Below are positions 24,062-28,736 of a stretch of 64,000 nucleotides of DNA, piece after piece (within the stretch, counting starts at the first letter, position 1; each line of letters begins with the position of its first letter). The notes beneath the pieces are model-generated. The model was given only the letters and a program-made list of their open reading frames with translations. It ran no database searches and was not told where the DNA came from. A program made the position numbers and the translations under genes. The stretch is from Akkermansia muciniphila (lineage in GTDB: Bacteria > Verrucomicrobiota > Verrucomicrobiia > Verrucomicrobiales > Akkermansiaceae), in the NCBI GenBank assembly GCA_945890645.1, contig CAMDCV010000012.1, forward strand, positions 1 to 64,000, read 5' to 3'.

Positions 24062-24661
24062 CACGCCCGCAACCTGTTCCAAAGGGAATGGTTTGTCAAC
24101 CATCCAGCGATTGGCTTTGGTTTTGTTGCCGACTCGATAGGCTCATGGACTACTTGGCATATGCATATAAACAAGAGAACCTTCCCCGTGTTCCATATTT
24201 GGAAAAACGCCGAGTGAGCAGCGGTCAGAGAAGAAAACAAATTCAGTAGCAACCGTTCAGTGCCAGCAGTTGCTACCTTTTGCACTCGTAATCACAGTCG
24301 TGAGTGTAACATTATAGATATCATTATAAAGTATTTGAGCATCGGAAGTATGTTTCCATCAAATGAAAAGCAAAGCCATGACACCACAAGAATTGGGGTC
24401 AATGTGCGAATCTTTAGAAAATTCACTGTAAGGGTAGAGTGAAGGTGTTGTTTTTACTTCAAATAGCGTCATTTTTTCAATATTTTTGCTCTGGCATTCA
24501 ACCCCCATTTCCCTGCCATCCGGTCCACTACAACGGCTGTTTCAAGAAGTTCCATTCCCGCCTAATGTAAAATCCTCCCGCAAAAGATGACAAGTTCGGG
24601 ACTACGTTTTTCCGCCGCAGCCTTTCGATTGATTCTCATCAAGTGGGCAAGAAATGGCGGG

Positions 24662-25033
24662 CTATCTAGGGACCTGCTCGGGCAGCCCGAGAGACTCGGC
24701 ATCTAAGCGGTAAATCGTAAGTTGGAAAAAATCCACGTCTCCTTCGTAACTGGCGAGGAAACATGGAGTCCCGCTACGGACACTCACCACGTAGATGAAA
24801 TCGTGCGGTGGAATACTGTGCTCGAAAGCTTCCACGTAGCAGATTCCCTCAATCGGCAAGAATCCCAGCCATTCCTCGCCCGTCCAGGAAACCCGGTTGA
24901 CATCCCAATACGCGTTGTCCACTCCAACCAGCGAGGATTGTTTGGCGATCACCTTGATGTTGCGGTGAATCCAATTCTCCATTTCTCTCCGGAATGCGCT
25001 ATGTGCAGTTGAGTCACCTTCATTGAAATTCAT
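24662..25033 (-). CDS. Orphan hypothetical protein
   Basis: ORF up to 143 aa; start at 25033 preferred because of GGAGTGGAG upstream; no recognised motif. Confidence 0.5.
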   Translation of the reverse strand: MNFNEGDSTAHSAFRREMENWIHRNIKVIAKQSSLVGVDNAYWDVNRVSWTGEEWLGFLPIEGICYVEAFEHSIPPHDFIYVVSVRSGTPCFLASYEGDVDFFQLTIYRLDAESLGLPEQVPR

Positions 25034-25164
25034 TGCTCCACTCCCGCTCATGTTAATGAACTTGTAGGAGCAGGCCGCGTGCGTCAAGTGCAAGTGTCAC
25101 GACTGCCACATGCACCGGCCTCCTGAGTGAGGAGGCACGCGTTTGTTGGAGTTAAATGCGTTAT

Positions 25165-25491
25165 TCATTCCGGCAGATCGCCCAAGTGCAAATGCCAACT
25201 CGGTGCCGTATTTTTCACCCGTTCTTTCAGCAGGCGCAAGCCCAAGTCCAGGCAGGCGTCCAGGCCGCTCAAATCTGCCCACGATTCGTCCAGCACCATG
25301 TTTCCGCTCATCACGGAAAGCAGGTAGGTGGGTGGATCAGGCTGCACCTGAAGCACGCGCATCTCCCCTACTAAGAAGCCGCCCTCCAGCAGCCAAAGGC
25401 GGTTTTTTCCTACAGCCGAGTGATGCCCCGTGAGTGGTAGGTCTCGTGCGGCGGCCCATCTTCGAATGTGGTCAGGGAGAGCAGGATTCAT
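25165..25491 (-). CDS. Orphan hypothetical protein, 108 aa
   Basis: Same-strand ORF 25 bp after the previous gene. Confidence 0.5.
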   Translation of the reverse strand: MNPALPDHIRRWAAARDLPLTGHHSAVGKNRLWLLEGGFLVGEMRVLQVQPDPPTYLLSVMSGNMVLDESWADLSGLDACLDLGLRLLKERVKNTAPSWHLHLGDLPE

Positions 25492-25516
25492 GATTCATAT
25501 ATTTAATGGAAGGGGC

Positions 25517-25873
25517 TCACCAACGCAGCCATGAAAGCCACCCACGGCGCCGTCGACCGGGAAAGCGGTGATCCATGCGGATGATGGTGCGCTGCAGAGT
25601 TTGCAAGGATGCCTCCAGCCGGCTCAACCTCGGCAGTATGTCCGGCGTCATGGCCGTTACAGTTACGAGGATGCTCATGCCCTCGTGGTTCGTGCAATAC
25701 CAAGTTTCTTGTTCACACTCAACGACGCGAAAATGGCCGTAATGCTCATTGTACCAGTCAACAACTGTTTCACACGAAGCTTCTGATGCATAAAGATAAT
25801 TGTGACTGCTTCCCCCTTCTAGCAAGGAGGCAGACAGACAATCGATTTCCAAGGAATCTGGATAAGCTTTCAT
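25517..25873 (-). CDS. Orphan hypothetical protein with cationic/aromatic C-terminus, 118 aa
   Basis: Starts 17 bp after NUDIX stop; C-terminus HRFPGRRRRGWLSWLRW. Confidence 0.55.
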   Translation of the reverse strand: MKAYPDSLEIDCLSASLLEGGSSHNYLYASEASCETVVDWYNEHYGHFRVVECEQETWYCTNHEGMSILVTVTAMTPDILPRLSRLEASLQTLQRTIIRMDHRFPGRRRRGWLSWLRW

Positions 25874-25890
25874 GAGTTGCCAATAGTGTG

Positions 25891-26370
25891 CTAATCGGAT
25901 GAATTGCGCGGCACAGGGAATGGCATTCCCTCGGATTGCAGAAGTTCTGCCGGATACACTATCCCGCCAGCAGCGACATAGGCTAACAGGTCGAGAACCT
26001 CTTGACCACGGAGCGGGTAATTTGTCAACTCATCCAATCCTACCCAAGCAGCGCCCAATGACTCTTCGTCTGGAATACTTTTGGGAGGGGTGTGGTCGAT
26101 TGGTTCGGCGAGAAACACCACCCGCAGGCGGGATCCGGAAGCGAGGGGGGTGTGTTCAACCCTAAGAACTCCGACGATACGAACCGGCACACCGGTCTCT
26201 TCCAACGTCTCACGGCGCGCTGCCGCCTCGAATGTTTCCCCAGGTTCGACCCGACCGGCTGGTAAATACCAAAGCTGACCGTGCTTGCGCTCATGGACCA
26301 TCAGGAACTGATCGGCGCGTTGAACCACAGTGATGGCAAAACACCAGGTGGGGATTGTTTCTCGCGACAT
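25891..26370 (-). CDS. NUDIX hydrolase
   Basis: Nudix box GRVEPGETFEAAARRETLEETGV. Confidence 0.93.
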   Translation of the reverse strand: MSRETIPTWCFAITVVQRADQFLMVHERKHGQLWYLPAGRVEPGETFEAAARRETLEETGVPVRIVGVLRVEHTPLASGSRLRVVFLAEPIDHTPPKSIPDEESLGAAWVGLDELTNYPLRGQEVLDLLAYVAAGGIVYPAELLQSEGMPFPVPRNSSD

Positions 26371-26777
26371 ATTGCTTCAAAGTATCCGTTCCTACATGCA
26401 GTTACTATATGCAGTTACAAAAGGGTGCCATTTCACGCCAATCATACTTTGCCAGATTCTGGAAAATTTCAGTCTTTATACTTGTAGTGTATTTTTCAAT
26501 TTCCCGTCGATAGCACGGTAAATTGTATTACTTCGCCTGTGTCTGTTACAATGGTCGGCTCCTTTATTCAGACGTTTTTTTTGCTGCCGTTCTAGGGTCC
26601 AAGCCAACCTCATCGTCGTCTCCGCCTGCACCACCTCTCGCCATCACATGATACATTTCCCTCGGAAACTAGATGCGGACCTGCCTCGGTATCCGGCTTA
26701 ACTCAACGCGCCATAAAAAAAAGTTAATAAACCATTACCCACCCCCATTGCTTCCGTACGCCTGCCTAAAGCCGACC

Positions 26778-28592
26778 CTACTTTCGTTCCCTTTTCCAAT
26801 AATACAGCTTAGGTGCATTATCAAATTGAGAGGTATCCAGTTCCGTCTTACGCTCTAGCTCAGCAAGTTCTACAAGATCCAAATCGCGGAACAGATTGAC
26901 TATGCCGTCGCCCATTGCGTCTTTGGGGCATTTGAATACGATCGAAATGGCGGACGTAGATCTCAATTCACCATCAAAATGATCTGGATCAGCCCAGTTT
27001 CTAGTATGAAATGCACTCCAATCTACATCTAACCAATTGCCATCCTTAATGCTGCGGATATAGTGTGGCAAATTGCGAAACCTATCGCCCCAAAAATCTC
27101 TAATGCCTTCAAATAACGCAGTTCTAGACAGATGGTCATATTTCACACCACGATTATTAATACTCGGGACAATATAGTCCTCCGTGCCGTCAAATGCTCC
27201 GTCACGGGCAAAAATGCTTTGGGATCCCTTTTCATCAAAAAACGAAATAGGGTCGGAGATAAGTCTGCCGTTATCGATGTATCGGGCATCTGGATAATCG
27301 AGCGTGCGCCTTCCAACTTTGCTGCTCTTAAGCAAGTCTTGTCGTATCAGCATGAAGTCCGTGGTGGTTGCCACTGTCCATTTCGCTGGGTCAATAGTGA
27401 GCAATTTATGGTGTACGAGCAGGTTGGGAAGAGTTTTGGGCATTGCTGGCGAGGACGAAAGACTAGTAAAATACTCTTTTCTGCTACATTTACCATAATC
27501 GCCAGTAGGAATACTGACAATAAGATAGACATTCTTCAATTCCGGCGAGGAAATAAGCGTCCATAGAAAATCCTTCGATGTATTAATATCTGAATCTACG
27601 GTTACATGCACTTCAGAGTATCCCTTGGTTACAAGTTGTTTCGTATCCGAAGAAGGTGTGGTGACAGGAGCAGGCATTGAGACAGAGTCTCCTGCCTCCT
27701 GATTGTCAGATTCTGCGATTTCAGATTGTTTGTCTTCGGAGCTTCTTTCCGAATCGGTAATAATGTCGCTGAGCCTCTTCACCTCAGCATTGACGCGCTC
27801 CTGTTTTTGAGCAAGCCCCTTGATCAACTCATCAAGCTCTTTCTTTTTTTCCAACCGCACCTCGTCGGAGAGCTCGGGATTGTCTATTGCCCGAGCCAAT
27901 GCCTGGCGGCGGGGAGCACTATCGCGCACTTCATCGTGAAATAGCTTGGCCACCATGTGAACATCATCCCAAGTCGGGGGGGCGGAAGTGCCTTCACTTG
28001 ATGGCACTGACGATGTTTGAGGAAGAATTTCTCGCATCCAATTGTAAGCCTGTTTATTTTTGTAACGCTCGTAGCTCCAGTCCGAAAGCCAATACGTATG
28101 TCCGTCAATTTTTGCGTAAGCAGCCACACTCGCAGTCCCTTGAGGCATTTGTTTGATGGCTTGGGCCGTGTTACTTGGTTCCGATATGACATCATAGCCA
28201 TTCGGAAAGGATTTTTCTACGGGAACTAGCAGCGGAGTCAGTTGCCAGGACTCAAAAGTTGACGCTGTCTTGGTATCGGTCTTTGGCAAAGAAGCGCTGT
28301 TTGGGCTGATCCAGTTGTGGCTTTGACCAGTTTTATATCGTTCATAGCTCCAATCTGAGATAAAGTAGCGTTTGCCATTCACGTCAGCGTATCCGGCGAT
28401 AGTTGCTGAGCCACTCGCCATCGTCTTGATCAGAGACGCTGTTTCTGAGGGTGTCGAAATAATTTCATAACCTTCTGGAAATTCCTTGGTTTCGGGCTTG
28501 GCGTAAACTTTAAGAGTAATATCGGCAAAAGCCGATATGGTGCTTGCGAGAATTAAGCAAATGATGAAATGAAATATTTTATATTTTATCAT
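26778..28592 (-). CDS. Secreted hypothetical protein with two tandem copies of a ~58-aa motif
   Basis: Signal peptide MIKYKIFHFIICLILASTISAFA; copies EFPEGYEIISTPSETA..SDWSYERYKTGQSHNW and SFPNGYDVISEPSNTA..SDWSYERYKNKQAYNW, then a charged coiled-coil-like segment and an unknown C-terminal domain. ATG at 28592 preferred over ORF start 28652. Confidence 0.75.
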   Translation of the reverse strand: MIKYKIFHFIICLILASTISAFADITLKVYAKPETKEFPEGYEIISTPSETASLIKTMASGSATIAGYADVNGKRYFISDWSYERYKTGQSHNWISPNSASLPKTDTKTASTFESWQLTPLLVPVEKSFPNGYDVISEPSNTAQAIKQMPQGTASVAAYAKIDGHTYWLSDWSYERYKNKQAYNWMREILPQTSSVPSSEGTSAPPTWDDVHMVAKLFHDEVRDSAPRRQALARAIDNPELSDEVRLEKKKELDELIKGLAQKQERVNAEVKRLSDIITDSERSSEDKQSEIAESDNQEAGDSVSMPAPVTTPSSDTKQLVTKGYSEVHVTVDSDINTSKDFLWTLISSPELKNVYLIVSIPTGDYGKCSRKEYFTSLSSSPAMPKTLPNLLVHHKLLTIDPAKWTVATTTDFMLIRQDLLKSSKVGRRTLDYPDARYIDNGRLISDPISFFDEKGSQSIFARDGAFDGTEDYIVPSINNRGVKYDHLSRTALFEGIRDFWGDRFRNLPHYIRSIKDGNWLDVDWSAFHTRNWADPDHFDGELRSTSAISIVFKCPKDAMGDGIVNLFRDLDLVELAELERKTELDTSQFDNAPKLYYWKRERK

Positions 28593-28696
28593 ATATATGC
28601 ACATACCTAAACGACCGATTAGCGTCAACCAAAAAAAGCAGGTTTTTTCCAATCGAGCTCGTGCATTCCCTTAATTGAGCGTCCCCCTCAATTGAT

Positions 28697-28725
28697 TTGT
28701 CATCTTCCCTGGCATACGCTAGCAA
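28697..28725 (+). promoter_or_regulatory. Candidate promoter for thrE-like gene
   Basis: TTGTCA-N17-TAGCAA; ATG at 28737. Confidence 0.4.
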
Positions 28726-28736
28726 CGCTTCTGGCA

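Follow-up and report, generated by a model that had tools for sequence, protein, structure and literature searches.

The 604-residue protein encoded in the window (the whole 64,000-nucleotide stretch of DNA analysed here) contains two copies of a recurring modular domain that is absent from Pfam and NCBIfam. Judging by its predicted structure, the domain is most likely of a divergent SH3b type: a subfamily, so far unlisted, within a known kind of domain, and not a new fold. On balance, the probable explanation is that an exported protein is held at the cell wall by the two repeats, with a linker presenting its C-terminal body. Wall binding and anchoring are suggested by the fold of the domain and the company it keeps in other proteins. 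The features are listed in Table 1.

Table 1. Features of the predicted exported protein and its genomic insert (positions in the window)
Feature	Coordinates	Strand	Basis
ORF, predicted secreted 604-residue protein with two SH3-like repeats	26778..28592	-	ORF listing and translation
Predicted signal peptide, approximately residues 1-24 (MIKYKIFHFIICLILASTISAFAD)	28521..28592	-	Hydropathy and sequence; cleavage after AFA judged by eye
SH3-like repeat 1, residues 25-102	28287..28520	-	Domain profile
SH3-like repeat 2, residues 116-194	28011..28247	-	Domain profile; AlphaFold2 pLDDT 96.0, pTM 0.85
Charged helical (coiled-coil-like) and low-complexity linker, approximately residues 205-315	27648..27980	-	Sequence
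Orphan C-terminal region, approximately residues 316-604 (about 290 residues)	26781..27647	-	Without convincing relative
Genus-variable insert: three small ORFs, NUDIX gene, and 604-residue protein gene	24104..28730	.	Edges set by flanking dehydrogenase gene and thrE only
NUDIX hydrolase gene on insert	25891..26370	-	Domain match
Three small ORFs without Pfam match on insert	25517-25873, 25165-25491, 24662-25093 (span 24662..25873)	-	ORF list and searches

The ORF begins with an ATG at position 28592 and its stop codon ends at position 26778, while an upstream TTG start would extend the product to 624 residues. A preliminary description of this DNA gave 605 to 624 residues; the ORF is real, and the lower figure includes the stop codon. 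Hydropathy peaks at 2.15 at residue 9, and the scan finds no second membrane stretch beyond the N-terminal leader. From reading and hydropathy, the N-terminus is a predicted Sec-type signal peptide.

Repeats 1 and 2 are 45% identical at an offset of 91 residues. The duplicated motif, placed about 91 residues apart by the preliminary description, lies at 28484-28311 (residues 37-94) and 28211-28038 (residues 128-185). The Smith-Waterman score between the repeats is 203, far above those of 5,000 shuffles (mean 25, maximum 54). A profile built only from the copies of other genomes recovers both window copies with i-E values of 2e-25 and 1.5e-24, computed for an assumed database of 4,000 proteins, and a second profile, built with the closest relatives excluded as well, recovers both at 3.1e-22 or better. 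The nearest relatives of the repeats are two tandem genes of another genome, G045 (L053, 268 and 303 residues), which are 39-49% identical to repeat 2 and have a signal-like leader. Each of these proteins has one copy of the domain, is shorter than the window protein, and has an unrelated C-terminus. Recent duplication was considered as the origin of the window pair; the tree does not separate the two from the G045 copies, and the 49% identity of repeat 2 to one G045 copy slightly exceeds its 45% identity to repeat 1.

Searches of the whole protein against Pfam, NCBIfam, PADLOC, and PDB sequences returned nothing credible. An Enkurin match (E 0.017) is under its cut-off and falls in the helical linker, and a match to a designed helical repeat protein was judged to be chance. 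The preliminary description named a match to a known Pfam domain as the result that would refute its proposal of a new module, and Pfam matched neither the single repeats nor their consensus. A literature search for a description of the domain found none.

With a threshold of E ≤ 0.01, matches to the domain occur in 21 of 387 genomes of the order Verrucomicrobiales, and a few of these matches are marginal. The count comes to 37 copies in 24 proteins (window protein included), with one to three copies in a row, and the carriers with solid matches span three families of the order. Marginal matches in G008 and G194 were left out of the count, and a match in G689 was rejected because its ORF resembles a GreA-like protein by eye. 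The consensus is roughly FPnGYeVv.ePs..akviKtvpgpatAnVkAy.dvnGvrYYlSDWSy.R...Gk.pNWirp, and all 37 copies share one invariant glycine. When 84,980 species were scanned with a single strict motif, which rarer versions elsewhere could escape, three loci were found, all labelled Verrucomicrobiales. Among 388 genomes sampled across the phylum, the solid carriers are the window's genome and G045 only. The domain is absent at E ≤ 0.001 from 259 other genomes of the window's family, and searches of phages, plasmids, and viral contigs found no relatives of the window protein.

In most family proteins, the domain lies near the N-terminus, directly behind a hydrophobic leader (read by eye in the relatives). 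Thirteen of the 23 relatives are caspase-like: seven carry a CHAT domain at the C-terminal end, and six carry a C14 domain, five assigned through Pfam and one through PADLOC and motif. One relative, in L037, has an FGE-sulfatase domain and a bona fide SH3_3 domain, the latter adjoining the new domain. Two further CHAT-type fragments were recognised by reading, one running off its contig (L040) and one short (L049). The latter, at L049:4767-5543 on the minus strand, contains only two domain copies and the fragment and is probably a decayed gene. The expected His and Cys are kept in all seven CHAT proteins and in three of the six C14 proteins (two in L047 and one in L048). The remaining three C14 proteins have Ser at the Cys position, reading DASR in place of the expected DACR. 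These three (L035:2877-5693, L036:4668-7502, and L038:2786-5635) are apparently secreted, keep the His motif, and are possible pseudo-caspases conserved across three genomes. In two neighbouring secreted proteins of L042 (3191-4387 and 4602-5774, plus strand), the domain is C-terminal and follows about 300 residues of unknown sequence, which excludes a strictly N-terminal role. The preliminary description missed both the occurrence of this domain in front of CHAT and caspase-like peptidases elsewhere and the position of the window gene on an insert.

AlphaFold2 modelled repeat 2 from an input of nine copies at high confidence (pLDDT 96.0, pTM 0.85). The modelled fold comprises six strands and a single helix. 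A Foldseek search of the PDB places wall-binding SH3b or related domains in all of its top eight positions (7aqh, 7bng, 5leo, 1r77 twice, 8alu, 9kz1, and 5d76), and the top ranks include the SH3b domains of phage 2638A endolysin, lysostaphin, and ALE-1. These eight have probabilities of 0.91-1.00, TMq values of 0.49-0.61, and identities of 5-14%, with a weak best E-value of 0.11. The lysostaphin SH3b reference sequence was confirmed to be identical to PDB 5leo. Among the viral structures of BFVD, phage amidases, a lysozyme, and a PGRP protein lead the named matches; the best four have probabilities of 0.98-1.00, and the best E-value is again weak (0.010). Sequence identity over the structural matches is 5-15% overall. 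By fold, the predicted model thus belongs with the SH3b superfamily, which ranks top in both libraries at weak E-values. These values are put down here to small size and divergence. The exported, modular, extracytoplasmic character of SH3b-like domains is also seen: the window protein starts with a hydrophobic leader, most relatives do so as judged by reading, and the partner domains vary.

Profile comparison with hhalign gives a score of 15.8 between the domain and SH3_3 (PF08239), higher than any of 100 column shuffles (maximum 13.2), and a score with SH3_5 (PF08460) above 99 of 100 shuffles. As a yardstick, SH3_3 and SH3_5 score 24.9 against each other at a probability of 50%, compared with about 16 and 3-5% for the domain against the SH3 families. 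By curated cut-offs, single copies and the consensus fall outside SH3_3 (hhalign probability 4.7%), and Pfam searches place the domain outside SH3_5 (3%). A search of the whole window genome for SH3_5 found none, but the positive controls also gave no match.

AlphaFold models of the repeats and the C-terminal region had been suggested in the preliminary description; that of repeat 2 is the confident model described above, but the single-sequence model of the C-terminus has a pLDDT of 34 and is unusable. Neither the 387 order genomes nor the other family proteins yielded a convincing relative of the C-terminal 290 or so residues. Matches from the order genomes were rejected as short and weak, several of them with internal stops. 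The C-terminal body is proposed to be lineage-specific.

The gene lies on an insert of about 4.6 kb between a dehydrogenase gene and thrE, together with a NUDIX gene and three small ORFs, all five genes being on the minus strand. The flanking core genes claimed by the preliminary description are correct for the insert as a whole; the immediate neighbours on one side are the NUDIX gene and the small ORFs. In G006 and G002, of the same genus, the dehydrogenase gene and thrE are 74 bp apart, which represents an empty site. In G009, also of the same genus, the gap contains a nitric oxide synthase oxygenase gene (PF02898, E 1.7e-137; L109:6452-7456, minus strand), so the site takes different cargo within the genus. 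In G003, thrE is present and the other neighbours were not found within the stretch fetched. The window gene has a GC content of 0.455 and a GC3 of 0.455, compared with 0.508-0.588 and 0.53-0.65 in 16 other window genes and a GC content of 0.533 for the window, and the AT-richer segment noted earlier is borne out. No long terminal or target-site repeats were found around the insert. The ORF at 25517-25873 has no relative in the 57 related genomes searched (window's own included). The variable site, the low gene GC, and the absence of the domain from the 259 family genomes fit horizontal gain; loss in relatives is also possible.

In the proposed mechanism, the protein would be exported by the Sec route, and the repeat pair would anchor it, either in the periplasm or on the surface, to peptidoglycan or a polymer linked to the wall. 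The helical linker would then present the C-terminal body, proposed to be lineage-specific. CHAT and caspase-like (C14) peptidases and one formylglycine-generating-enzyme-like protein may be anchored by this module in relatives. The confident model, the top-ranking SH3b wall binders, the modular, leader-adjacent copies, the SH3_3 neighbour in L037, and the weak SH3_3 profile signal support wall anchoring, and the weak E-values, the 5-15% identity, and the lack of a Pfam SH3 match count against it. Of the new extracellular binding module suggested in the preliminary description, the extracellular part agrees with the signal peptide, the leader-adjacent recurrence, and the varied partners, and the module is new in that Pfam and NCBIfam do not reach it. 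The fold is not new, as it matches SH3b, and binding is suggested by fold and context.

The main rival to wall anchoring is that the domain binds protein and regulates or assembles secreted CHAT and caspase-like enzymes as a prodomain, an oligomerisation module, or a substrate-docking site, with the window protein as a partner or free-standing scaffold. This is a possible but distinctly less probable reading. A general wall anchor would not need company as narrow as CHAT or C14 in 13 of 23 relatives, although copies from related genomes are non-independent and the count overstates the link. The catalytic pair retained in seven CHAT and three C14 proteins, with Ser for Cys in three C14 proteins as in a regulatory pseudo-enzyme, points the same way. 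However, an enzyme part of this kind is lacking in the window protein and in about eight relatives, and the nearest structures are wall binders and not protein-binding SH3 domains. A stronger version, rated as a long shot, makes the domain the dedicated docking module of a secreted envelope network of caspase-like (CHAT/C14) proteases in Verrucomicrobiales, in which the window protein would be a mobile, protease-free substrate, adaptor, or inhibitor.

Two other readings are improbable. Conserved repeats joined to an orphan C-terminus, on a low-GC insert at a variable site and with three small same-strand downstream ORFs lacking a Pfam match, would suit an effector or polymorphic-toxin-like protein, with a conserved front, a lineage-specific tip, and perhaps a protective partner among the small genes. 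However, searches turned up neither toxin nor immunity families (with no known relatives for the C-terminus and small ORFs), no pre-toxin or trafficking domain is seen, and the NUDIX gene separates the small ORFs from the 604-residue gene. The SH3b likeness could instead be convergence in an independent small beta-barrel family with a different function, for example adhesion to glycans or surfaces. The weak E-values, the insignificant SH3_3 and SH3_5 profile matches, and the lack of the SDWSYxR...NW signature in aligned SH3_3 and SH3_5 sequences would agree with this; against it stand the consistent top rank of SH3b in both structure libraries and the profile echo, which is weak but exceeds shuffles.

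Discussion of CHAT and caspase-like proteases mostly concerns their part in defence and cell death in the cytoplasm. An unlisted SH3-like domain, in one to three N-terminal copies, marks apparently exported members and raises the question of their role in the Gram-negative envelope. More interesting than the repeat itself is this company of apparently exported caspase-like proteases. With a domain profile, annotation pipelines could give a name to the N-terminal part of such "hypothetical" proteins. In a 2016 metacaspase survey of an aquatic ecosystem, none were found in Verrucomicrobia (PMC4933709), and the C14 members from Verrucomicrobiales add to that picture.

The window protein has its N-terminal domain in common with secreted proteins of CHAT and C14/metacaspase-like type in the same order, but its C-terminal body matches none of them; CHAT, C14, and TPR domains are absent, as is a peptidase domain with catalytic His and Cys. 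SH3-like barrels also bind proteins and nucleic acids, so the fold alone gives no ligand. Compared with SH3_3, the general bacterial SH3 family, the domain has about 80 positions and not 54, and a weak 27-column alignment, under any significance threshold, sets its vvxePsxxakvik against NVRSGPS. SH3_5 (lysostaphin, ALE-1, and staphylococcal phage endolysins) resembles the domain in predicted fold (probability up to 1.00, TMq about 0.6), in the extracytoplasmic and modular character of its proteins, and in a short profile match at the G-x-R-x-Y-L strand. The domain differs in its own signature, FPxGY...SDWSYxR...NW, and in its mainly N-terminal position. The ligand of the lysostaphin SH3b domain is the pentaglycine bridge, a staphylococcal feature (PMC6461655), so the ligand here should differ from that of lysostaphin.
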